From IMG/VR virus record IMGVR_UViG_3300009034_000015, positions 17,630 through 81,629 of that record: a stretch of DNA of 64,000 bases. One strand, given 5' to 3'. This DNA comes from a virus. How positions within the stretch are numbered: position 1 is the stretch's first letter; each line of letters begins with the position of its first letter. Made by a program: the position numbers and the translations under genes. A model generated the notes under the pieces. It had not been told where the DNA came from. It made no database searches and worked only from the letters and a program-made list of their open reading frames with translations. Positions 483 to 57,188 of this stretch are shown here, piece after piece.

Positions 483-734
483 TTAATCATCATCCTCGTC
501 CTCGTCTTGATCCTCATCCTCATCTTCTTCTTCATCCTTTGTCTTTTTGGACTTCTCCTTTTTCTTCTTGCCCTTGTCGCCCTTCTTCTCCTTCTTTTTC
601 TTTTCCTTCTTCTCCTTCTTTTCTGCCTTTTCTGCTGCCTTCTCGTCTTTGTCCTTGGCCACAACTACAAGTTTCCTACCCAGATCCTTTGCCTGGTCAG
701 GAGTCAATCCAGTTACAGTAATAGTAATTTCCAT
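483..734 (-). CDS. Lys-rich protein with acidic tail, function unknown
   Basis: The protein has 83 residues. The ATG at 734 is chosen over an in-frame GTG at 743 because GGAGG lies 8 nt before it. Residues 1-28 look like a small folded domain (EITITVTGLTPDQAKDLGRK). A stretch of alternating Lys/Glu runs follows, and the last roughly 20 residues are almost all Asp/Glu. The composition is low-complexity and polyampholytic, as in disordered DNA- or protein-binding tails. It is the last gene before a strong terminator, downstream of the VWA protein. No family is recognised. Confidence 0.75.
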   Translation of the reverse strand: MEITITVTGLTPDQAKDLGRKLVVVAKDKDEKAAEKAEKKEKKEKKKKEKKGDKGKKKKEKSKKTKDEEEDEDEDQDEDEDDD

Positions 735-827
735 TAAGCTCACCTCCTTTCTTTTTTAAGATAATTAAGTAAAGGTATTTACTACCCACTACTTACTAAA
801 TTATATAAAAAGAAAATTAAAAATTAA

Positions 828-884
828 TTAATCCCTCAAAAAATAGCCTTAGCATTTAACTAAGGCTAAATTTTCAAAGATTAA
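828..884 (-). promoter_or_regulatory. intercistronic nested-hairpin RNA element E1
   Basis: Minus strand: outer 12-nt arms TTAATCTTTGAA and TTGAGGGATTAA pair with one central G x G mismatch. The inner stem is AGCCTTAG/CTAAGGCT. It starts one base after the stop codon of the VWA gene (886-888). It lies 94 nt before the next start, farther than in the other seven copies. Confidence 0.75.
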
Positions 885-885
885 T

Positions 886-2688
886 TTAAATTAATCTAAA
901 CTGCCTTATTAAAGCAAGCAAATCTCTTAATAACTGGTCTTGCTTATCAATACTAATCTTTAGCACCGGAAACTTAAACCAGTCAACAAAAGTATTTAGT
1001 TCAATCCTATTAGTTTGTTTATACCAAATATTATTACTATAAGCATCATCATAAGCATCTTCAGGCACAGCAAAAATAACTTGACAACGATTTCTACTTG
1101 CTTTAATAATTAAGTCCTTAAAAGACTTATTGGCATTAATAGCACAGTTCTCACCAAGATCAGTAAAGACAATCATAATAGATTTTAAATAGCCCTCTAC
1201 CTTTAATTGATTTAAAAGAAAATGAGTAGAATATAAAATTGGAGTAATACCGATATGAGGTATTTCATCCCCTCTTATTATATCTACTGAACAGCGTGAA
1301 CCAATAACATGCTTACCAGTAGTAAACCACACTTGGTCAAAATCAATTAAGCCCTTAAAGGTCTCAGAAAGGATAGCATAAATTCTTTTTTCTAAATCAA
1401 AATAACTAGTCATAGAACCAGAAATATCTCCAGAAAAAATAACTTTAGCTCCCTTTTCTAATTGAGGCAATTTAAAAACCCTTACAGAAAATTCGTGCTT
1501 AGATTTAATATACTGTTGAATATCTATTAAATTTCCAGTAATATCTAAGTTAGTTTTTAATTTCTGTCTTAAAACAAGGGCTTTTCTAAGTTTCTTTGCC
1601 AGTTCCTTATCTTCAACACTTTCGCATTTAGGAACAGTTTTTTTACCTTTTTCAGTAATAGAAACTTCTTTTTTATTTAAACCTTGTTTAAGATCAGATT
1701 CAACTTTTTCCTTAGCAGAAAATTTCTGCATTAAATCCTTAGCACCTTGAACCAATGATGATAGTTCAGCTACCTCATCCTGCTCTTCAAAGTCCATTCC
1801 ATCTGTTATGCTTTCCTCTAAGTCAGTTTGCATTAGGTTAGAAAAAGAATCCTCATTATCATAAGAATCAAACTCTTTGCTTTCATTCTCAGAATCTGAA
1901 TCTTCCTTTTCTTTAGGCTGCTCAGTAGCATCCTGTTCTTGCTCTTTTTCTTTATGCTGATCAGAATTATTTTGTCCTTGCTCATCCTCTTGATCTTCAG
2001 AACCTGAACCTTCTTGCTGACTATTATCATAAGGCTCATCTAAATCCTCATCAACATCCTGGCTTTGCTCATCCTTACTTTCTTGGCTTTCTCCTTGTTG
2101 TTTATTTTGGTTTTCTTCTTCTTGCTGCCTTTTTTGTTTAGCTTCATTTATTTCCTCATTATAGAGTTTATAAACTTGCTCACCAAGTTCTACCACTCTT
2201 TTATTTGAAATAAACTTACTTTCAAACTCAGTTCTTATTTCTCCTAACTTTTCATTTAGTTTAGGAAAAGAACTTTGACCAATAAAAGCATCAAGAACCC
2301 AGTCAGGATAAAAAGAAATAATAGGTTTATAATACCTATTTGTTTTTCTTTTTTTCCTTTTACCAATTAAATCCAAATAAAACCAAGGAACAATTCGCCC
2401 TGCCATAGTATAACTTCTAAGGTCAAATAAACCATTAGTAATAGCTCGTTGATAATGCTCAACAATCTGATTATTAATTATAGATTCTTTAACTTTATCT
2501 AAGCCAAAAGTTTTTGACCAATAATCAGCTTCTGCTATTAAATAGTTATGATAACCTGAAGCTTTATTACTAACAGGCTTGCTACCTAACCTTGCTCCTC
2601 TTAGAGCTAATGCTATCGCATTCCAGATTTCATTTGACTTATTAAGACTATCTGCCGTCCACCGATCTTTCTTCTTAGTCTTCTTCAT
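886..2688 (-). CDS. VWA (CobT-like) MIDAS protein, partner of the AAA+ ATPase
   Basis: The protein has 600 residues. ATG 2688 is preferred to ATG 2700 because GGAGG lies just before 2688 and overlaps the first codons of the longer form. The N-terminal half is followed by a Glu/Gln/Asp-rich low-complexity linker (about residues 180-330). A C-terminal von Willebrand A domain carries the MIDAS motif DISGSM (421-426), a Thr near 482 and FTD near 510. This architecture (acidic linker plus C-terminal VWA) is that of CobT-type partners of MoxR/CobS AAA+ proteins. These pairs act as metal-chelatase or remodelling machines. The AAA+ gene lies 400 bp upstream in the same unit (3089-3889). The substrate is unknown; cobalt chelation is not implied, since no cobalamin genes are present. 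Confidence 0.8.
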   Translation of the reverse strand: MKKTKKKDRWTADSLNKSNEIWNAIALALRGARLGSKPVSNKASGYHNYLIAEADYWSKTFGLDKVKESIINNQIVEHYQRAITNGLFDLRSYTMAGRIVPWFYLDLIGKRKKRKTNRYYKPIISFYPDWVLDAFIGQSSFPKLNEKLGEIRTEFESKFISNKRVVELGEQVYKLYNEEINEAKQKRQQEEENQNKQQGESQESKDEQSQDVDEDLDEPYDNSQQEGSGSEDQEDEQGQNNSDQHKEKEQEQDATEQPKEKEDSDSENESKEFDSYDNEDSFSNLMQTDLEESITDGMDFEEQDEVAELSSLVQGAKDLMQKFSAKEKVESDLKQGLNKKEVSITEKGKKTVPKCESVEDKELAKKLRKALVLRQKLKTNLDITGNLIDIQQYIKSKHEFSVRVFKLPQLEKGAKVIFSGDISGSMTSYFDLEKRIYAILSETFKGLIDFDQVWFTTGKHVIGSRCSVDIIRGDEIPHIGITPILYSTHFLLNQLKVEGYLKSIMIVFTDLGENCAINANKSFKDLIIKASRNRCQVIFAVPEDAYDDAYSNNIWYKQTNRIELNTFVDWFKFPVLKISIDKQDQLLRDLLALIRQFRLI

Positions 2689-2708
2689 AACTACCTCCAT
2701 TATAATAG

Positions 2709-2760
2709 TTAATCCCTCAAAGAATCCCTTTATTTCTAAAGGGAAACTTTCAAGAATTAA
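2709..2760 (-). promoter_or_regulatory. intercistronic nested-hairpin RNA element E2
   Basis: Minus strand: arms TTAATTCTTGAA and TTGAGGGATTAA around inner stem TCCCTTTA/TAAAGGGA. It contains the stop codon of the upstream gene (2757-2759) and ends 21 nt before the ATG at 2688. Confidence 0.8.
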
Positions 2761-2876
2761 GTTAGATTCTTCTTTATCTTTCTTTCTATGCCTTCCTTAA
2801 TTATTGAATAAGCTAACCACATGCCTATTAATAATCCACTAAGAAAAGCAACTATATGAGATAAATAAAAAGCCAT
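2757..2876 (-). CDS. small single-pass membrane protein
   Basis: The protein has 39 residues: MAFYLSHIVAFLSGLLIG, then a hydrophobic segment to about residue 25 and a basic C-terminus (IERKIKKNLT). GGGAGGT lies 4 nt before the ATG. It fits one transmembrane helix with a cytoplasmic Lys/Arg tail. The stop codon lies inside RNA element E2. The function is unknown; the strong ribosome site and tight spacing support a real gene. Confidence 0.6.
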   Translation of the reverse strand: MAFYLSHIVAFLSGLLIGMWLAYSIIKEGIERKIKKNLT

Positions 2877-2903
2877 TAATACCTCCCTTTCTAAATATCA
2901 ATT

Positions 2904-3071
2904 TTAATTGCTTTCATACCAATCAAGAAGAGTCTCTATCTCGGTTACAATTAAATTTAAATTAGCCAGTTCATCTTCTTGCCAATTTTCAATTTGACGA
3001 TAACGCAAATTTTCAGGCTTGAGTTTTTGCATTGCCTTTCTTAATTTAGAAAATTGATTTTGATTTGCCAT
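2904..3071 (-). CDS. small hypothetical protein
   Basis: The protein has 55 residues. It is predicted helical and charged, beginning MANQNQFSKLRKAMQKLK, with GGGAGG about 9 nt before the ATG at 3071. It lies between the AAA+ ATPase and the small membrane protein in one transcription unit. No family is recognised; it could be an adaptor of the AAA+/VWA pair, but only position supports that. Confidence 0.6.
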   Translation of the reverse strand: MANQNQFSKLRKAMQKLKPENLRYRQIENWQEDELANLNLIVTEIETLLDWYESN

Positions 3072-3088
3072 CTAAATTACCTCCCTTT

Positions 3089-3889
3089 TTAAATATCAAT
3101 ACCAAAAGTTCCTCTTACTCTTTCAGCATAGGTTTGATAATCCTCATTCTCAAACTTACCAGCAGTTAATTTGAGAACCTCTTCGATAGTAAAACCATTT
3201 AAGGTTGCCTTACCCATTTCAACTAAATCCCTTGTTGATAGAGCATAACTAAAACCAGTAGTCCTTGTCTGAACTGCAAGGTTAACAAGGGCAGAAACTA
3301 AATTCTGATCCTCTAAACCAATTTTCTGGAGTATCTTAATCTCTTTTTTAGCAGAAGGATAGTCCATATTAATAATCCAGAACCTTGATTTAAGGTCTTC
3401 ATTTAGTTCAAATGCTCCACCATAAACACTTGGATTCTGAGTTCCTACTACTATCATCGGATCTTGGTATTCATAGCGCTTACCTATTTCCTTTACTGTG
3501 ATTCCTTGTTTAAGGTCGAGTAAAGAGTTAAGCATCTTTTGACTACCTGGAGGTAAAGCATTTAATTCCTCTAAAAGAAGAATAAACTTTTCACCCCTAT
3601 TCTGATACTTAATAGCAGTAGGTAAAATCCCAAGTGAGAAATAGCCTTCAGAACCATCAAGTCCATAATGACCAATTAGCTGAGCATATCTAGTTTCCTC
3701 TGAGCATTCAGCAATTAATAGTTTATACTTATTCTTTCTTGCATAAGAATAAACCATTAGGGTTTTACCAATTCCTTTTGGGCCATTTAAGATAACATGG
3801 CTTAACTTGGCAAAATCAAGTTTTTTGCCAACATAAGGAATTGAACCTCTTAATTTAGGTTTTACCAGTTTCTCATAAACCTTTTTCAT
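3089..3889 (-). CDS. MoxR/CobS-type AAA+ ATPase
   Basis: The protein has 266 residues. Walker A is GPKGIGKT (36-43), Walker B is FILLLEE (about 102-108), sensor 1 is GTQNPS near 155, and an arginine-finger-like LKSRF follows. Length and motif order fit the MoxR/CobS/CbbQ group of AAA+ ATPases, which act as hexamers with a VWA partner to remodel or metallate a target. The VWA partner is encoded downstream (886-2688). GGAGGTGATTT precedes the ATG. RNA element E3 sits 28 nt upstream. Phages of many types carry such CobS/CobT-like pairs, but the target is not known here. Confidence 0.85.
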   Translation of the reverse strand: MKKVYEKLVKPKLRGSIPYVGKKLDFAKLSHVILNGPKGIGKTLMVYSYARKNKYKLLIAECSEETRYAQLIGHYGLDGSEGYFSLGILPTAIKYQNRGEKFILLLEELNALPPGSQKMLNSLLDLKQGITVKEIGKRYEYQDPMIVVGTQNPSVYGGAFELNEDLKSRFWIINMDYPSAKKEIKILQKIGLEDQNLVSALVNLAVQTRTTGFSYALSTRDLVEMGKATLNGFTIEEVLKLTAGKFENEDYQTYAERVRGTFGIDI

Positions 3890-3916
3890 AAATCACCTCC
3901 ATATTAAAAAAGTTTT

Positions 3917-3969
3917 TTAATCCCTCAAGGAATACCTGGAATTAATCCAGGTAAACCCTCAAGGATTAA
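3917..3969 (-). promoter_or_regulatory. intercistronic nested-hairpin RNA element E3
   Basis: Minus strand: arms TTAATCCTTGAG and TTGAGGGATTAA; inner stem TACCTGGA/TCCAGGTA, unrelated in sequence to the other inner stems yet perfectly paired. It contains the stop codon of the gene at 3966-4208 and ends 28 nt before the AAA+ start. Confidence 0.8.
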
Positions 3970-4208
3970 TGCCCTAAAAGCTTATTAACCCTCTCAACCG
4001 TTCGGATAAGTTTCCGAATAGCCTTTCGATGCTGAGTAGATTTTACATACTTAGCACCCTTAATAGCAATCTTAGCAATAGCCAAGGACTCAGTAAGAGT
4101 TAAAGGCTTTTTAATTCCTTTAACTTTTCTTTCTGTCCTTTTTAACTGCTTTTTCTGCTTTTTTGGCCTTCCCGGTTTTCTTTTCTTTTCCTTTGCTTTC
4201 TTTTTCAT
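3966..4208 (-). CDS. basic AT-hook-like protein
   Basis: The protein has 80 residues. The Lys/Arg-rich N-terminus contains KRKPGRPKK (about residues 9-17), which matches the AT-hook core (PGRP flanked by basic residues), used to bind the minor groove of AT-rich DNA. The rest is helical and basic. AGGAG precedes the ATG at 4208. The first 89 nt overlap the end of the gene at 4120-4437 in another frame, far longer than the usual 1-14 nt overlaps here. A nucleoid-like or regulatory DNA-binding role is inferred. Confidence 0.6.
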   Translation of the reverse strand: MKKKAKEKKRKPGRPKKQKKQLKRTERKVKGIKKPLTLTESLAIAKIAIKGAKYVKSTQHRKAIRKLIRTVERVNKLLGH

Positions 4209-4437
4209 CTACACTCTCCTTTCTTTTAGCGAGTTTTTCTGCTAGCTCTCTTAAATGGTTCTTCTTCTTTTCATCTTGCTCTTTTTCCCTTTTAGCCTTA
4301 ATCCATTTTAAAAGAGCTTCTTTAGACCAGATGACTAGCCTATTATCCTTTATTCTCTGGACAACAACTTCTTCTGAAGTTTGATAGACTATTTCAGCTG
4401 GTCCACTTCGAAAGTAAACTTTCCAGCCAATTACCAT
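4120..4437 (-). CDS. hypothetical protein with Lys-rich tail
   Basis: The protein has 105 residues. An N-terminal roughly 40-residue beta-rich region (VIGWKVYFRSGPAEIVYQ) could be a small SH3/KOW-like fold. A long helical, Lys/Glu-rich C-terminus follows. TAAATG joins it to the upstream gene, whose last codons include GGAGGTGTAA as its ribosome site. Its C-terminus overlaps the AT-hook gene by 89 nt. No family is recognised. Confidence 0.65.
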   Translation of the reverse strand: MVIGWKVYFRSGPAEIVYQTSEEVVVQRIKDNRLVIWSKEALLKWIKAKREKEQDEKKKNHLRELAEKLAKRKESVDEKESKGKEKKTGKAKKAEKAVKKDRKKS

Positions 4438-4764
4438 TTACACCTCCTTTCTTCCTTCTTTAAGGCCAATCGAAACTTCACTACCATCTACAGCAGTTCC
4501 ACAGACCATTAAAGGTTTCTTTGGTTTAAGAATCTTTCCATTTTTCAGAACAAGATAACTAAATTTTGGGGATCTCTTTTTCATTAATTCCTTACCCTTT
4601 GGAGTATTACCTATAATAACACACCTTAAAGAAGAATTAATTCTAAGAGATTCTAACTTTTCTTTTGCTTGCTTGATAGTTTCAGTATTAAAACAAAAGA
4701 ACATTTTAGGATCATCCCCTTTAGGTATCTGCGTCTGAAACCTATCCTTTTTCTTAAAACCCAT
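4438..4764 (-). CDS. hypothetical protein
   Basis: The protein has 108 residues, mixed alpha/beta, with segments such as SLRCVIIGNTPKGKEL and PLMVCGTAVDGSEV. The start has GGAGGTGTAA directly upstream, within the end of the preceding gene. The stop abuts the next ATG. I recognise no family; it sits between a DNA repair glycosylase and an AT-hook protein. Confidence 0.65.
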   Translation of the reverse strand: MGFKKKDRFQTQIPKGDDPKMFFCFNTETIKQAKEKLESLRINSSLRCVIIGNTPKGKELMKKRSPKFSYLVLKNGKILKPKKPLMVCGTAVDGSEVSIGLKEGRKEV

Positions 4765-5106
4765 TTACACCTCCTTTCTTTTTCTACACTTCTTGCATCG
4801 TTTATAAAGATCACTAAAGGATTTTTTTAAATCAACTTTAGTATTCTTTTCGGTATTATCTAAATTTAATAAAATATCTCTACTATATTTTATATAAGCA
4901 TTATGATTCAGATTACGCTTCTTCATTTCCTTAGCTAACAAATCATGACGATCCCAAATAGCTAAGGGTTCTACAAATTGCTGTAAGGCAAGTTTGCCTA
5001 ATTTTCTTCCTTTTGCAATATGACCAGCAAGTTTATGCAATTCATAATGTTCACCTAATAAATGCTGATTACATAATAAGGAAGGTTTTAGCATCCACAT
5101 CCTCAT
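4765..5106 (-). CDS. pyrimidine-dimer DNA glycosylase (endonuclease V family)
   Basis: The protein has 113 residues. The N-terminus MRMWMLKPSLLCNQHLLGEH, followed by ELHKLAGHIAKG, EPLAIWDRHDLLAKEM and KKRNLNHNAY, is the signature of the Pyr_excise family. T4 DenV is its classic member and shares QHL..E..EL and RH..L..EM..RG. In that family the enzyme excises UV-induced cyclobutane pyrimidine dimers by glycosylase/AP-lyase chemistry. The C-terminal basic tail with KKCRKRK is unusual. The ribosome site is GAGAGG. It is shorter than T4 DenV (138 aa) but covers the core. Confidence 0.8.
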   Translation of the reverse strand: MRMWMLKPSLLCNQHLLGEHYELHKLAGHIAKGRKLGKLALQQFVEPLAIWDRHDLLAKEMKKRNLNHNAYIKYSRDILLNLDNTEKNTKVDLKKSFSDLYKRCKKCRKRKEV

Positions 5107-5135
5107 TAGTTACCTCTCTTTTTAAATTAATAAAT

Positions 5136-5186
5136 TTAACTCCTCAATAAAGCCCTTTAAAATAAAGGGCTAAGTTCAAAAGTTAA
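5136..5186 (-). promoter_or_regulatory. intercistronic nested-hairpin RNA element E4
   Basis: Minus strand: arms TTAACTTTTGAA and TTGAGGAGTTAA. Relative to the other copies, positions 5-6 and their partners change together (T-A to C-G, C-G to T-A), which is compensatory. Inner stem AGCCCTTTA/TAAAGGGCT. It begins 3 nt after the upstream stop codon and ends 30 nt before ATG 5106. Confidence 0.8.
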
Positions 5187-5189
5187 ATT

Positions 5190-5405
5190 TTATTCATGCT
5201 GCTCATCATCTTCTTTTTCTTCTAATTCTAATTCATGGCATTTACTAAAAGTTTCAATTTGAGCTTGAATAGAATAAAATAACTTTTCAACTTCTCTTAT
5301 TGTTAAATTTACACCATGAATTGAACGCCCAATCATTCTTCCCTCAAATCCAGTAACTTTGCTAATCTCAATGTTAAAAACCCCTCTTTCTTTTTCATCT
5401 ATCAT
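5190..5405 (-). CDS. hypothetical protein
   Basis: The protein has 71 residues: an N-terminal beta-like stretch (VFNIEISKVTGFEGRMIG), then a helix and an acidic end (EEKEDDEQHE). GGGAGGTTAAG precedes the ATG and element E5 lies 29 nt upstream. No family is recognised. Confidence 0.65.
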   Translation of the reverse strand: MIDEKERGVFNIEISKVTGFEGRMIGRSIHGVNLTIREVEKLFYSIQAQIETFSKCHELELEEKEDDEQHE

Positions 5406-5433
5406 CTTAACCTCCCTATTTAAAGTTAATAAA

Positions 5434-5486
5434 TTAATCCCTCAATAATCCCCTTAAATAAATTAAGGGGAAAGTTCAAGGATTAA
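5434..5486 (-). promoter_or_regulatory. intercistronic nested-hairpin RNA element E5
   Basis: Minus strand: arms TTAATCCTTGAA and TTGAGGGATTAA; inner stem CCCCTTAA/TTAAGGGG. It contains the stop codon of the 5483-5656 gene and ends 29 nt before ATG 5405. It is nearly identical to E8. Confidence 0.85.
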
Positions 5487-5656
5487 TAAGCTAAAAGATC
5501 TAATCTCTTTTTTATTTCCGCCTTTTCCTCTTTGCAAACTTCACGAAGATCACAATACTTACAAAATTTATGCTTAATTTTCTTTGGATTTTTATTCCTT
5601 AAATGAGAAATTAAGCAACCAAAAGCATTTTCTTGTTTAGAAGTTCTTAAAGCCAT
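5483..5656 (-). CDS. small Cys-cluster protein (Cas4/RecB tail-like motif)
   Basis: The protein has 57 residues. A single Cys at 14 is followed by FCKYCDLREVCKEE (32-45), giving C-x2-C-x6-C. This resembles the C-terminal iron-sulfur Cys cluster of Cas4/AddB-type PD-(D/E)XK nucleases, but no nuclease domain is present. AGGAGT precedes the ATG at 5656. It may be a standalone metal-binding protein. The nuclease-tail likeness is only motif-level. Confidence 0.6.
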   Translation of the reverse strand: MALRTSKQENAFGCLISHLRNKNPKKIKHKFCKYCDLREVCKEEKAEIKKRLDLLAY

Positions 5657-5684
5657 TTTACTCCTCCTTTTCTAAATTAATAAA

Positions 5685-5741
5685 TTAATACCTCAAGGAA
5701 TTACCCTAATTAAAAATTAGGATAAAACCTTCAAACATTAA
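5685..5741 (-). promoter_or_regulatory. intercistronic nested-hairpin RNA element E6
   Basis: Minus strand: arms TTAATGTTTGAA and TTGAGGTATTAA; position 6 pairs G-U instead of C-G, preserving the helix. Inner stem CCTAATT/AATTAGG. It contains the stop codon of the small gene at 5738-5833 and ends 29 nt before ATG 5656. Confidence 0.75.
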
Positions 5742-5833
5742 TTCCTTTTAGCTACCTTAGCTAGAGTTAATTCTAACTTATTAACTCTGCATTTTAAAAG
5801 CCAGATAGCTCTTTGAATTTTTATTAAAGTCAT
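5738..5833 (-). CDS. short peptide gene
   Basis: The protein has 31 residues, begins MTLIKIQRAIWLLKCRVNK and is amphipathic and basic. AGGAG lies 7 nt before the ATG and the stop codon is embedded in element E6, the same arrangement as the longer genes around it. No homology can be judged at this length. Confidence 0.45.
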   Translation of the reverse strand: MTLIKIQRAIWLLKCRVNKLELTLAKVAKRN

Positions 5834-5846
5834 AGCCAGTCTCCTT

Positions 5847-5945
5847 TTACTTCTTAATTAGCTTTATAGTTTCTAAGTTAAAAACTAAAGCAATCTTCTG
5901 AAGAGTTGACTTCCTTCGCCTTCTAACTTTAATAATCCTTTTCAT
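5847..5945 (-). CDS. short basic peptide gene
   Basis: The protein has 32 residues, beginning MKRIIKVRRRRKSTLQKIAL, highly basic. GGGAGGTTTAAA precedes the ATG and element E7 lies 22 nt upstream, which supports translation. It could bind nucleic acid; no family is recognised. Confidence 0.5.
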   Translation of the reverse strand: MKRIIKVRRRRKSTLQKIALVFNLETIKLIKK

Positions 5946-5966
5946 TTTAAACCTCCCTTCAATTAG

Positions 5967-6018
5967 TTAATCCCTCAATAAAGCTCTCCAATTAAGGAGA
6001 GCTAAGTTCAAGGATTAA
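5967..6018 (-). promoter_or_regulatory. intercistronic nested-hairpin RNA element E7
   Basis: Minus strand: arms TTAATCCTTGAA and TTGAGGGATTAA; inner stem AGCTCTCC/GGAGAGCT with a 6-nt loop. It contains the stop codon of the 6015-6362 gene and ends 22 nt before ATG 5945. Confidence 0.85.
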
Positions 6019-6362
6019 ATCTTTTTCATCCTTTCTTGCAATGCTGCCAGTTGTTTTTCCCTAAATTCATTATAAGCTTGCTCAGTTACAATTCGGGTTC
6101 CACCATGACCTTTATCAATAGTCGAGATCATAATTGGAAAAATAATATAAGGTTTTCTTTCTGCCTCGGCATCTGGAGTTATTTCAACCTGGTCTGCAAA
6201 TCCTTCAGTTTTAATAATCTTTGTTACTACGCCCCAATGCTCTGGATTTGCCATATCCCCTCGGTTATAAACTCTAAGACCAATTTCAATCTCTTCTGTT
6301 TTCATCCCTGCTTTTCTACTTATCGCCTTGGATTCTTCAAAGCATATTTCTTTTAGCCTCAT
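6015..6362 (-). CDS. hypothetical protein
   Basis: The protein has 115 residues. A charged N-terminal helix is followed by IGLRVYNRGDMANPEHWG and VVTKIIKTEGFADQVEIT, a beta-rich core that may be an SH3/KOW-like barrel, and a C-terminal helix (QLAALQERMKKI). GGAGGTTTAAA precedes the ATG. The stop codon is in element E7 and E8 lies upstream. Function unknown. Confidence 0.7.
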   Translation of the reverse strand: MRLKEICFEESKAISRKAGMKTEEIEIGLRVYNRGDMANPEHWGVVTKIIKTEGFADQVEITPDAEAERKPYIIFPIMISTIDKGHGGTRIVTEQAYNEFREKQLAALQERMKKI

Positions 6363-6392
6363 TTTAAACCTCCATAGTTTAAAGTTAATAAA

Positions 6393-6445
6393 TTAATCCC
6401 TCAATAATCCCCTTAAATAAATTAAGGGGAAAGTTCAGAAATTAA
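6393..6445 (-). promoter_or_regulatory. intercistronic nested-hairpin RNA element E8
   Basis: Minus strand: arms TTAATTTCTGAA and TTGAGGGATTAA, with G-U pairs and a C-G at position 8 keeping the helix. The inner stem CCCCTTAA/TTAAGGGG is the same as in E5. It contains the stop codon of the 6442-6615 gene and ends 31 nt before ATG 6362. Confidence 0.8.
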
Positions 6446-6615
6446 TAACAGCCACTTAAAGTTCTCATATTATTATGATTAGCCTTAACTATTTTAGCAT
6501 GCCTAATACAAAGATCTTCATAAATTTTATGATTTGGAAAGACTTTTACACTTCTCACATTTTTTCTTAGCTTACCACAAATATCACATTTTTTCATTTT
6601 TACTTTAGTCTTCAT
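6442..6615 (-). CDS. small zinc-finger-like protein
   Basis: The protein has 57 residues. CDICGK (10-15) and LCIRHAK (35-41) give a C-x2-C ... C-x2-H metal-binding pattern with basic residues between. AGGAG lies 6 nt before the ATG. It is the first gene downstream of the structured RNA at 6733-7129, so it could be translated from the same transcript. A nucleic-acid-binding role is plausible but unproven. Confidence 0.6.
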   Translation of the reverse strand: MKTKVKMKKCDICGKLRKNVRSVKVFPNHKIYEDLCIRHAKIVKANHNNMRTLSGCY

Positions 6616-6641
6616 TTTATTCTCCTTTTAAATAGTTATTA

Positions 6642-6694
6642 AAAACTCAGTTAAGCCCACTTTAAATAAATAAAATGGACTTAATGAGGTTTTA
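6642..6694 (-). promoter_or_regulatory. imperfect hairpin between structured RNA and first small gene
   Basis: Minus strand AAAACCTCATTAAGTCCATT pairs imperfectly with the run ending CTTAACTGAGTTTT, about 18 bp with bulges. It lies upstream of the ribosome site of the 6442-6615 gene. Arm sequences and mismatch pattern differ from elements E1-E8, so I do not count it as a member. It may be a processing site or attenuator at the 3' side of the structured RNA. Confidence 0.5.
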
Positions 6695-6732
6695 AAAGAA
6701 TAAACTCAGATTTACTCTTTTGGAGGTAATGG

Positions 6733-7129
6733 AGGTTATATTGTTCTTTACTTTAAATTATAGCCCACTTATCTTTTTGGTTTCACTCTATCCACCCTCA
6801 AAGCTTTTATGGTAACTCCCGGTTAAAAACCTATGTTTACCACTAATAACTTCCCAGCTCCCGAATCCAACCTCAGTTAATTCCTTGCTCTTTATTTCTT
6901 TTTAATTACCATCGCTAGAATAGCTAAGAAATAAAGCCAAGATAAGTTTCTTAAAATCTATTTTAAGAACCCTAGAGTGATTAAGCTTTTATAGCCCTTT
7001 AACTTACCGCCAGCTTTAATGTTGCCGAGGTAGCAATAACCTCAGAATTAAAGCTCTCCTTCAGGCTATAATGATAACCTACTCCGTTATGTAAAAGAAC
7101 TAATAGAAGTATTATAAAAAAGCTCTTAA
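6733..7129 (-). ncRNA. large structured non-coding RNA candidate with pseudoknots
   Basis: No gene fits this stretch, but it folds heavily. Paired blocks (plus coordinates) are 7119-7129/6981-6990, 7064-7070/6990-6996, 7047-7055/7012-7020 (9 bp), 7027-7031/7039-7043, 7074-7078/7086-7090, 6948-6956/6961-6969, 6890-6900/6926-6936 (11 bp), 6767-6775/6939-6947 (9 bp) and 6810-6815/6837-6842. A loop pseudoknot pairs 7032-7036 with 7022-7026. A long-range one pairs 6973-6979 with 6784-6790 across the 6767/6939 stem. The segment 6758-6765 can also pair with 7064-7071, an alternative closing stem. G-U pairs and neighbouring genes favour the minus strand. Phages encode large ornate RNAs such as GOLLD and ROOL; whether this belongs to one is not decidable here. 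Confidence 0.65.
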
Positions 7130-7281
7130 TTTCTTTTTTAATTTCCCTCATCATACTTTAATATATAAGCTAAAACTGTGCCAAAATTAGGATAAATAGG
7201 CAAAAACTCGTTTTAAGGCTATTTTATAAGGGATAATAGGGTTTTACTATAAGTTATTTTTATAATATCTGATTACAAAAA

Positions 7282-7298
7282 TAGGTAATATTTACCTA
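7282..7298. promoter_or_regulatory. palindromic operator candidate O1
   Basis: TAGGTAATATTTACCTA is a perfect inverted repeat TAGGTAA-N3-TTACCTA. An identical pair of half-sites with a different 3-nt centre occurs 84 bp away at 7366-7382, about eight helical turns. Two copies on one DNA face are typical of a dimeric repressor operator. The binding protein is not identified. Confidence 0.65.
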
Positions 7299-7365
7299 AT
7301 TTAAGCCTAAATTGTCAGTAGTTCTATAAACCCTTTATTTCATTAGGTTTTTTATGATTTTAAAT

Positions 7366-7382
7366 TAGGTAAAAATTACCTA
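7366..7382. promoter_or_regulatory. palindromic operator candidate O2
   Basis: TAGGTAAAAATTACCTA is the second perfect TAGGTAA-N3-TTACCTA palindrome, upstream of the structured RNA in the sense of transcription. As RNA it could form a short hairpin, but the conserved half-sites with a changed spacer fit a protein-binding DNA site better. Confidence 0.65.
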
Positions 7383-7504
7383 TAAATTACAAAAAGTAAT
7401 AGCCTTTTTCCTTAAAACACAGTTTATTAACTTTTAAGCCCCTTAAAATAATCAAAAATAATTAAAAAAACTTTAATCTACCTTATCACAATTATATAAT
7501 TATA

Positions 7505-7550
7505 CTTAATTATATTATAATTATATTTAATTAAATATAATAAGCTCCAT
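7505..7550 (-). repeat. AT-rich motif copy A (inverted partner at 57100-57145)
   Basis: Minus strand reads ATGGAGCTTATTATAT, one base change, TAATTAAATATAA, then TAATATA-type sequence. The plus strand at 57100-57145 carries the same string with only a few changes. The first 16 nt and the next 13-nt block are identical. Both copies lie in intergenic DNA, in opposite orientation and about 49.6 kb apart. A promoter, replication-origin or protein-binding function is possible. Confidence 0.55.
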
Positions 7551-7648
7551 AGATAGCTTATAAGGGCTTTTAGGCTATTAAGCCTTAACTTAACCTTTAA
7601 TTTTAAAACTTAGCTATATCCCTACCTATCCTGGTTAGTAATTAGATA

Positions 7649-7687
7649 ATAAAAAAGCCCTAATATAAACTAATTATTAGGGCTTTT
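7649..7687 (-). terminator. Rho-independent terminator (end of replication unit)
   Basis: A 13-bp perfect stem (7653-7665/7675-7687, AAAAGCCCTAATA and complement) with a 9-nt loop, followed on the minus strand by six T. It closes the transcript ending with the gene at 7710-8315. The A-rich 5' side makes it potentially bidirectional. Confidence 0.85.
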
Positions 7688-7709
7688 AAAAAGTAGGTTT
7701 AAGGTTTAT

Positions 7710-8315
7710 TTATTCTATTTTCTTTTTCCTTGCTGCTTTAACTAACTTTTGGATTATATCCTTATCTTTACCTTTATAAACTGCTTCATAACTTTTAGGG
7801 TTTTTAATCTTCTTTACCCCTGGTAGTTTTATATAATGCCTAAACTTTATTTTACCATCTGGTTTAAGGCAAATAATATTCTTAGTTTCCTTTTTGTTTT
7901 TAAAAACTATATTATCATTTTCTTTTACTGTGTATTTTCTACCTTTCAATAATCTTTTTATAAAACTTAAAAAAGGAAACTTTTGTTCTAATTCTGCTTC
8001 TACTTTTAACTGCTCTTCGGTTAAATCTTGCAAACCCTTTTCTATCTCTTCAACAGTTTTGTCAGTTAGCTCTTTTTCCTCTGCGAATATAGCTCCACAA
8101 TAAGGGCAATAATCTAAGTCTGGTATATCAAACTTGCAATTAGCACATCTAAAATAAAAAGAACCATATTTTTTAATAAGTTCTTTTTCTACTCTTTCAA
8201 TACCATCTTCTAAGCCATGCCCTTTTAACTGGATTTTTATATAAGAAACTCCAGTTAATTTAGAAAGTCCTACCTTTAACGATTCTACTGTAAGCTTGCC
8301 CCTATCTGGCTCCAT
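7710..8315 (-). CDS. zinc-ribbon protein, function unknown
   Basis: The protein has 201 residues. Residues 57-75 hold CANCKFDIPDLDYCPYCG, a four-Cys zinc ribbon. A Glu-rich helical linker follows, then a basic C-terminal beta-rich segment (GRKYTVKENDNIVFKNKK) and a Lys-rich end. AAAGGAG precedes the ATG at 8315. It overlaps the upstream gene by 31 nt. It is the last gene of the replication-side operon, before a strong terminator. Zinc ribbons of this kind often bind nucleic acid or polymerase; no family is named. Confidence 0.75.
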   Translation of the reverse strand: MEPDRGKLTVESLKVGLSKLTGVSYIKIQLKGHGLEDGIERVEKELIKKYGSFYFRCANCKFDIPDLDYCPYCGAIFAEEKELTDKTVEEIEKGLQDLTEEQLKVEAELEQKFPFLSFIKRLLKGRKYTVKENDNIVFKNKKETKNIICLKPDGKIKFRHYIKLPGVKKIKNPKSYEAVYKGKDKDIIQKLVKAARKKKIE

Positions 8316-11144: not shown

Positions 11145-11238
11145 TAAGCTTATATAACTCAGGTTATTTACTATTATATTTAATTAGATTTATTTAAAAA
11201 ATCTTTTCTTATAAGTTTAGCTATTTTCTTTTAATAGC

Positions 11239-17568: not shown

Positions 17569-17693
17569 TTATATCACCTCCTCTCTAAGCCCTCTTAATT
17601 AGTTTCTAAGAGGTTTTAATTTTAAGTTAAGGGATAACCCTATTTTATATATAAAGTCTTAACTGAGCTTATCCTAGTAAGGATTTTAAGATA
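17569..17693 (-). promoter_or_regulatory. leader with hairpins and promoter-like TATATATAAAA
   Basis: The minus strand contains AGTTAAGACTTTATATATAA, close to the 45 kb promoter-like motif. A CCTCTTA/TAAGAGG hairpin sits directly before the ribosome site of the membrane protein gene, and ATCCT/AGGAT pairs near 17680. It may give the possible lysis gene its own expression. Confidence 0.4.
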
Positions 17694-56984: not shown

Positions 56985-57188
56985 CTATCTTATGCTTTAT
57001 TATACCTTAAATTATTTACCAGAGTAAGTCCAGTTAATATATAGCCTTAATATCTTTAGGTTACTATTAATTAAAAATTAAAACCTCTTAGAGCCTATTT
57101 ATGGAGCTTATTATATATAATTAAATATAAATGTAATATAACTTATAATATAATAAAATTTAACTAAATAACAGAGATATTAAATTAA
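56985..57188. other. AT-rich intergenic region without genes
   Basis: It holds the inverted copy of the 7505-7550 motif (57100-57145) and no open reading frame that can be supported. It separates the accessory block from the glycan cluster and may contain a promoter or replication-related site. Confidence 0.4.
57100..57145 (+). repeat. AT-rich motif copy B (inverted partner of 7505-7550)
   Basis: Plus strand ATGGAGCTTATTATAT, one changed base, TAATTAAATATAA, then TAATATAA, matching the minus strand at 7505-7550. Orientation is opposite to all genes here, so if it is a promoter it fires antisense; a two-ended function such as an origin or protein site is more likely. Confidence 0.5.

Follow-up and report, generated by a model that had tools for sequence, protein, structure and literature searches.

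A family of hairpins between the genes of a phage operon

The window analyzed here is a stretch of 64,000 nucleotides, positions 17,630-81,629 of the 81,630-nt virus record IMGVR_UViG_3300009034_000015. The record is that of a tailed phage, with genes for a terminase, a portal, a major head protein, a tape measure and a DnaB helicase. One minus-strand operon of the window carries eight hairpins, E1-E8 (Table 1), which an initial annotation had described as covarying intercistronic RNA elements. All eight are present. In a structural scan that required a stem of 9 bp, then a GxG mismatch and two more pairs, the window yields these eight, strongly folded, as its sole family members, and the 17.6 kb of the record that precede it yield none. 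The strong hairpins of the window that lie close to ribosome sites are all inside this operon or immediately ahead of it.

Each of the eight elements folds as one hairpin, at -20 to -31 kcal/mol, with the arms 5' UUAAUYYUUGA(A) and 3' UUGAGGGAUUAA. Their common part consists of a 9-bp base, a GxG mismatch found at position 10 in 8/8, as had been claimed, and 2-4 more pairs, with an internal loop of UU/UU or CUU/UUA. The upper stems are unrelated in sequence yet paired, which also agrees with the initial annotation, although the length given there (7-9 bp) becomes 8-11 bp in our folds. The annotated number of copies was correct as far as it went but overlooked a probable divergent ninth copy, which has a 6-bp base, a CxU mismatch, CUCA/UGAG, a bulged C and a 14-bp upper stem, and which the covariance model described below does not report.

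Table 1. Hairpin elements and other features of the window (window coordinates)
Feature	Position	Strand	Context and remarks	R1 (bits)
E1	828-884	minus	Follows the 604-aa gene; 93 nt to the next start	61.4
E2	2709-2760	minus	Before the 604-aa gene; upstream stop = positions 2-4	62.9
E3	3917-3969	minus	Before the MoxR-like AAA ATPase gene; upstream stop = positions 2-4	60.4
E4	5136-5186	minus	Before the pyrimidine-dimer-glycosylase-like gene; compensated C5-G, U6-A	62.2
E5	5434-5486	minus	Upstream stop = positions 2-4	66.8
E6	5685-5741	minus	Upstream stop = positions 2-4; G-U at pair 6	60.4
E7	5967-6018	minus	Upstream stop = positions 2-4	62.0
E8	6393-6445	minus	Upstream stop = positions 2-4; almost identical to E5	62.8
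Tentative ninth element	6639-6697	minus	Fold -22.8 kcal/mol; ends about 23 nt ahead of the operon's first gene	
Element-bearing operon	483-6615	minus	About a dozen genes, small for the most part; transcribed 6615 to 483	
MoxR/AAA_5 ATPase gene	3089-3889	minus	Preceded by E3	
Pyrimidine dimer DNA glycosylase-like gene (PF03013)	4765-5106		In the operon; preceded by E4	
604-aa gene	886-2700		In the operon with the MoxR-like ATPase gene; E2 before, E1 after	
Terminator-like hairpin	414-462	minus	3' of the operon's final gene	
AT-rich non-coding regions	7484-7572; 57067-57179; 11172-11219; 17596-17630		Mutually repeated as inverted copies (72 nt 82%, 35 nt 86%, others)	

Evidence that the element acts as RNA

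Pairing in the family is kept by compensatory change. Among E1-E8 alone, standard pairs fill 92.6% of the cells, compared with 77.0% after shuffling, and two-sided changes occur in 11 pairs, compared with 5.4; neither value was reached in 500 shuffles. The individual substitutions that had been read as compensated are borne out (C8-G in E8, together with those of E4 and E6 in Table 1). Over 21 sequences, two-sided changes are found in 19 of 23 pairs, again beyond all 500 shuffles, and the signal falls sharply when the pairing register is slid. These controls leave kinship within a phage in place, but about 11 lineages contributed the sequences. In three related carriers (G004, G006 and G007) the element is kept before a homologous gene, whose products in G004 and G006 are 48.9% identical in amino-acid sequence, and the upper stem varies through paired substitutions.

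The nine base-arm pairs of the 31 aligned elements make up 279 cells, of which 277 are paired; there are 62 G-U pairs and a single A-C. Because the 62 G-U pairs would be mismatches on the opposite strand, the structured molecule is the coding-strand transcript. The hairpin family thus acts as coding-strand RNA and not as DNA, which supports the earlier proposal of a dispersed RNA module between cistrons that is maintained by covariation.

Distribution in other phages and mobile elements

A covariance model built from E1-E8 alone (R2), the search that the initial annotation had recommended, matches elements in unrelated phages. Over 405 kb of other records, its top 18 matches are elements of other phages or mobile elements, match 19 (L165:7970-8026) is another copy in the phage G001, and match 20 (L163:2400-2448) is a probable copy in G009. 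No match at E ≤ 1 was obtained in 675 kb of control loci picked solely for the 3' arm sequence. Loci picked for both arms score 20-29 bits with R2 by construction, and the score alone cannot sort them; we therefore judged them by their inner segment, which is free of the search pattern, and by gene context. Strong folding of this segment (z below -3) coincides with a downstream Shine-Dalgarno sequence and start in 15 of 17 loci, against 3 of 31 for the other loci. By inner-segment folding and context, most DNA-pattern matches are due to chance. Also excluded were L122 and L132, which fold but stand outside such a gene context, and L093/L103, which reach 29 bits yet fold weakly.

In total, the element is found in about 11 lineages and more than 30 copies, and the G+C content of the stretches examined ranges from 0.27 to 0.55. 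The carriers are largely unrelated: an all-against-all protein comparison, with several records represented in part, found no gene common to all of them and merely scattered distant homologues between the unrelated ones. G001 (83 kb) has eight copies, and in locus L165 (G001:56000-74000) its two subtypes are adjacent, three copies with GxG and a bulged A, and five with U-G followed by a pyrimidine mismatch and a 2x2 loop. G009 (114 kb) has about six complete copies as well as half and chimeric ones, and G008 has two. The other carriers are G002, G003, G005, the related prophage-type G004/G007 and G006, G010/G011, whose element region is identical, and L191, which was found with the outer arms left free and whose arms pair nonetheless, with another sequence (UAAGGCUU/AGGCCUUA).

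The element is rare in cellular genomes. A Tenericutes bin (G012) has one contig with the G006 element, and a Desulfobacterales bin (G013) has two copies, one of them ahead of a serine recombinase gene. No further convincing copy was found in 288 (order) and 392 (phylum) bacterial genomes around the Tenericutes bin or in 243 around the Desulfobacterales bin, these scans yielding two weak matches (E 0.005-0.007). A G001 element with its flanks has no match among deposited phages. A query with the MoxR protein of the window found no close relatives, and the terminase query returned one 28-kb fragment with an identical terminase and without the element, plus one distant relative.

In locus L163 of G009 (G009:30000-42000), a chimeric long element occupies coding-strand positions 7213-7302 and a remnant of the 3' half only (GGCAGATATGAGAGGGTTAACC) lies at about 7890-7960, which suggests recombination within elements. 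The same locus shows similar leaders of the form TTAACC..TTTAA..GGAAGGAGAAA before many G009 genes, whether or not an element is present (coding-strand 5966-8220); they are a possible start-associated sequence (SAS), comparable to the SAS of mycobacteriophages discussed below.

The half-elements and chimeras of G009, as well as near-identical duplicates (E5/E8; G001b/c), speak for a DNA repeat, mobile or marking recombination boundaries, that spreads from one gene cassette to another in the manner of lambdoid boundary sequences or of MITE and REP sequences. We consider this very unlikely, since the upper stems are unrelated yet paired, G-U exceeds A-C in the base arms by 62 to 1, and the copies stand ahead of ribosome sites, on the coding strand. 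The half-copies and chimeras fit recombination at gene borders as a route of spread, which is compatible with a function as RNA.

Conserved and variable features

UGAG on the 3' strand is constant in 31/31 aligned rows, and the AU-rich paired ends are also kept. The GxG mismatch, for which the initial annotation had suggested seeking a binding protein, is not supported as the key recognition feature: position 10 is GxG in 28 of the 31 rows and U-G in three, U-G occurs in five copies of G001, and, outside the aligned rows, C-G is found in one G009 copy and in the probable ninth copy of the window. Past position 10 there are 2-4 pairs, after which the helix is interrupted by a loop (UU/UU or CUU/UUA), by a mismatch (C-A or C-C) or by one bulged base in the 3' strand; in G004 and G006 the stem runs on unbroken. 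Helix length is 24.8 ± 2.1 levels over 32 elements, the upper stem being free in sequence and not in length. What the family has in common is the UGAG of the 3' strand, a base stem of about 9 bp and some 24-25 helix levels in all, and not the GxG mismatch.

Position relative to genes and proposed function

Of 22 elements with an upstream open reading frame of at least 50 codons, 15 have the stop codon of that frame precisely at positions 2-4, and in none does it lie deeper. In the window the stop is at positions 2-4 in six of the eight elements, as had been noted, and just upstream in E1 and E4. A Shine-Dalgarno sequence and a start codon follow nearly all elements, the ribosome site lying outside the hairpin, and the start is mostly 20-30 nt past it. 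The claim that seven of the window's elements end 21-31 nt before a start needs slight amendment: seven starts are at +20 to +30 nt (for E2, +8 or +20, depending on the ATG chosen), and that after E1 is farther away (Table 1). In L191, the 3' arm itself supplies a GAGG and the start codon comes immediately after.

The stop codon fixed in the stem base and the ribosome site given by the L191 arm would suit translational coupling or insulation, in which the hairpin blocks sliding after termination and keeps the next ribosome site free of neighboring mRNA, and a ribosome ending at positions 2-4 melts the hairpin. We hold this to be improbable. Nearly all other copies have a separate, unsequestered downstream Shine-Dalgarno sequence, and the probable ninth copy stands before the operon's first gene; insulation, for its part, needs neither a conserved sequence nor a near-constant helix length.

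The initial annotation had offered mRNA processing, stability and translational coupling as functions, a choice that cannot be made from sequence alone. We favor, with middling confidence, an intercistronic mRNA processing or 3'-end hairpin that would be cut by host RNase III or a similar double-stranded RNA endonuclease. Once the operon is transcribed, each element folds into an irregular helix of about 24-25 levels: above the 9-bp base come the mismatch (level 10), 2-4 pairs, in most cases a small internal loop or a bulge, and the variable stem. An endonuclease specific for double-stranded RNA, most likely host RNase III, would cut near mid-helix, with a predicted site on the 3' strand directly before the conserved UGAGGGAUUAA. 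The downstream gene would be freed together with a short leader and a ribosome site of its own. The upstream gene would keep a 3'-terminal hairpin that may slow decay. As the upstream stop is built into the stem base, a terminating ribosome would cover the 5' arm, and folding and cutting would come after the upstream gene had been completed. The built-in stop codon suggests a direct link between the completion of a gene and the processing of its message. Both cellular bins with the element have RNase III genes, and a search of ten phage records found none encoded by a phage, which fits an enzyme of the host. Processing of the host RNase III type is also favored by the coding-strand pairing, the covariation, the constrained helix length and the gene context described above, and by the likeness to the RNase III signals of T7, in anatomy and at the 13th base from the 3' end, as set out below.

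Several observations weigh against processing by RNase III. This enzyme is weakly sequence-specific, yet UGAG and UUAA are strongly conserved across unrelated phages; conservation beyond the known need of RNase III makes a sequence-reading partner possible. Part of the apparent conservation stems from searches by sequence pattern. The model has no match in the records of T7 and SPO1, and none that is credible with filters off in stretches of both. Furthermore, an unpaired 13th base is lacking in E1, E2, E3, E6, G004 and G006.

A sequence-reading partner could be a phage or host protein that recognizes UGAGGG on the 3' strand and the irregular center and coordinates operon translation or decay without cutting. 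In line with such a regulatory RNA, UGAG and the AU-rich ends of the base are strongly conserved even in copies that were not selected by pattern, and the copies of G000, G001 and G009 are gathered in one region per phage. We nonetheless find it rather unlikely, given that the protein comparison found no gene common to all carriers, that the ribosome site is outside the hairpin in nearly all copies, and that the type of mismatch varies (GxG, U-G, C-G). It is possible, and we offer it tentatively, that the elements are an undescribed RNA family of unrelated phages whose hosts belong to different bacterial phyla, with the UGAGGGAUUAA of the 3' strand and the irregular center recognized by a dedicated protein or nuclease, of host or phage origin, which would cut polycistronic messages, or gate them, in time with translation termination.

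We give hardly any credence to intrinsic terminators or attenuators, or to DNA operators. A T-rich stretch follows the inner stem in E1 and E2, and these are the two of the eight elements that a terminator scan flags, in a region without clear excess over shuffles; the strand asymmetry of the G-U pairs argues against an operator.

A family that a covariance model can recognize in unrelated phages offers a way to study how phages tune each gene of a long operon to its own level. It is also a searchable marker in metagenomes, and the question of its function is testable with short in vitro substrates.

Other features of the locus

The protein encoded by the 604-aa gene has a long, acidic, glutamine-rich middle and no Pfam or PHROG match; the pairing of this gene with that of the MoxR-like ATPase is reminiscent of MoxR/VWA systems. 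The terminator-like hairpin beyond the operon's final gene was read from the sequence and appears in the structural-scan fold at 457; the terminator scan did not flag it. The AT-rich inverted repeats are possibly control regions common to different transcription units.

Comparison with known systems

Rfam 15 gave no match at the gathering score for the window and none at E ≤ 1 for four element-bearing loci, in agreement with the earlier remark that no named family corresponds to the element. No earlier description or close parallel was found in the open literature, with most subscription journals outside this scope. A kink-turn formed from UGA/UGA was rejected on inspection: the register fails to close, and the U-G and C-G variants have no tandem GA pairs. 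The early-promoter/stem-loop cassettes (PeSL) of T4-type phages are also dispersed intergenic stem-loops; they presumably carry an early promoter, whereas the element region shows no excess of promoters. A promoter in the 3' arm, with TTGAGG as the -35 element, was likewise rejected on inspection, its spacing and -10 element being inconsistent.

The SAS and ESAS of cluster K mycobacteriophages, whose function is unknown, resemble the family in being imperfect inverted repeats with a variable spacer that occur in several copies directly upstream of some gene starts. For ESAS, Pope et al. (2011) noted that departures within the repeats do not support RNA pairing, and DNA-binding sites were favored (PMC3203893). 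Unlike these 17-bp repeats, the arms of the family covary and pairing is kept by compensatory change. The 13-bp SAS, 5'-GGGATAGGAGCCC (consensus from PMC3203893), was not seen at window gene starts by inspection. The model has no match in a stretch of phage TM4.

To our knowledge, few phages (T7 and SP82) have mRNA processing signals that have been worked out in detail. Those of the Bacillus phage SP82 are RNase III signals, reportedly described by Panganiban and Whiteley in 1983, and those of T7 early mRNA include the RNase III sites R0.5, R1, R1.1 and R1.3. The intercistronic regions of T7, folded here, give hairpins that measure 45-53 nt, span 20-25 levels and have a central internal loop. 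The stop of gene 0.4 is at hairpin position 4, and the starts of genes 0.5, 1 and 1.3 are at +16, +23 and +17; the hairpin before gene 1.1 is farther from its start. Like the family, the T7 early signals are hairpins between small early genes; of the four, two touch the upstream stop or overlap it, and three end 16-23 nt ahead of a start.

The T7 R1.1 RNA, 60 nt long, derives from the stretch between genes 1.0 and 1.1 and forms a hairpin whose internal loop is of 4/5 nt (PMC6121014). A single cut divides this RNA into 47 and 13 nt, that is, 13 nt from the 3' end (PMC4858673). The 13th base from the 3' end is bulged or mismatched in many elements of the family; the R1.1 cut is known from experiment, whereas for the family hairpins we infer cleavage. 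The family has no sequence match to the T7 and SPO1 signals and differs from them in holding one base-arm sequence across unrelated phages. It shares with signals of the T7 and SP82 type an irregular helix of about two turns, placed between cistrons among small genes and before the next ribosome site.

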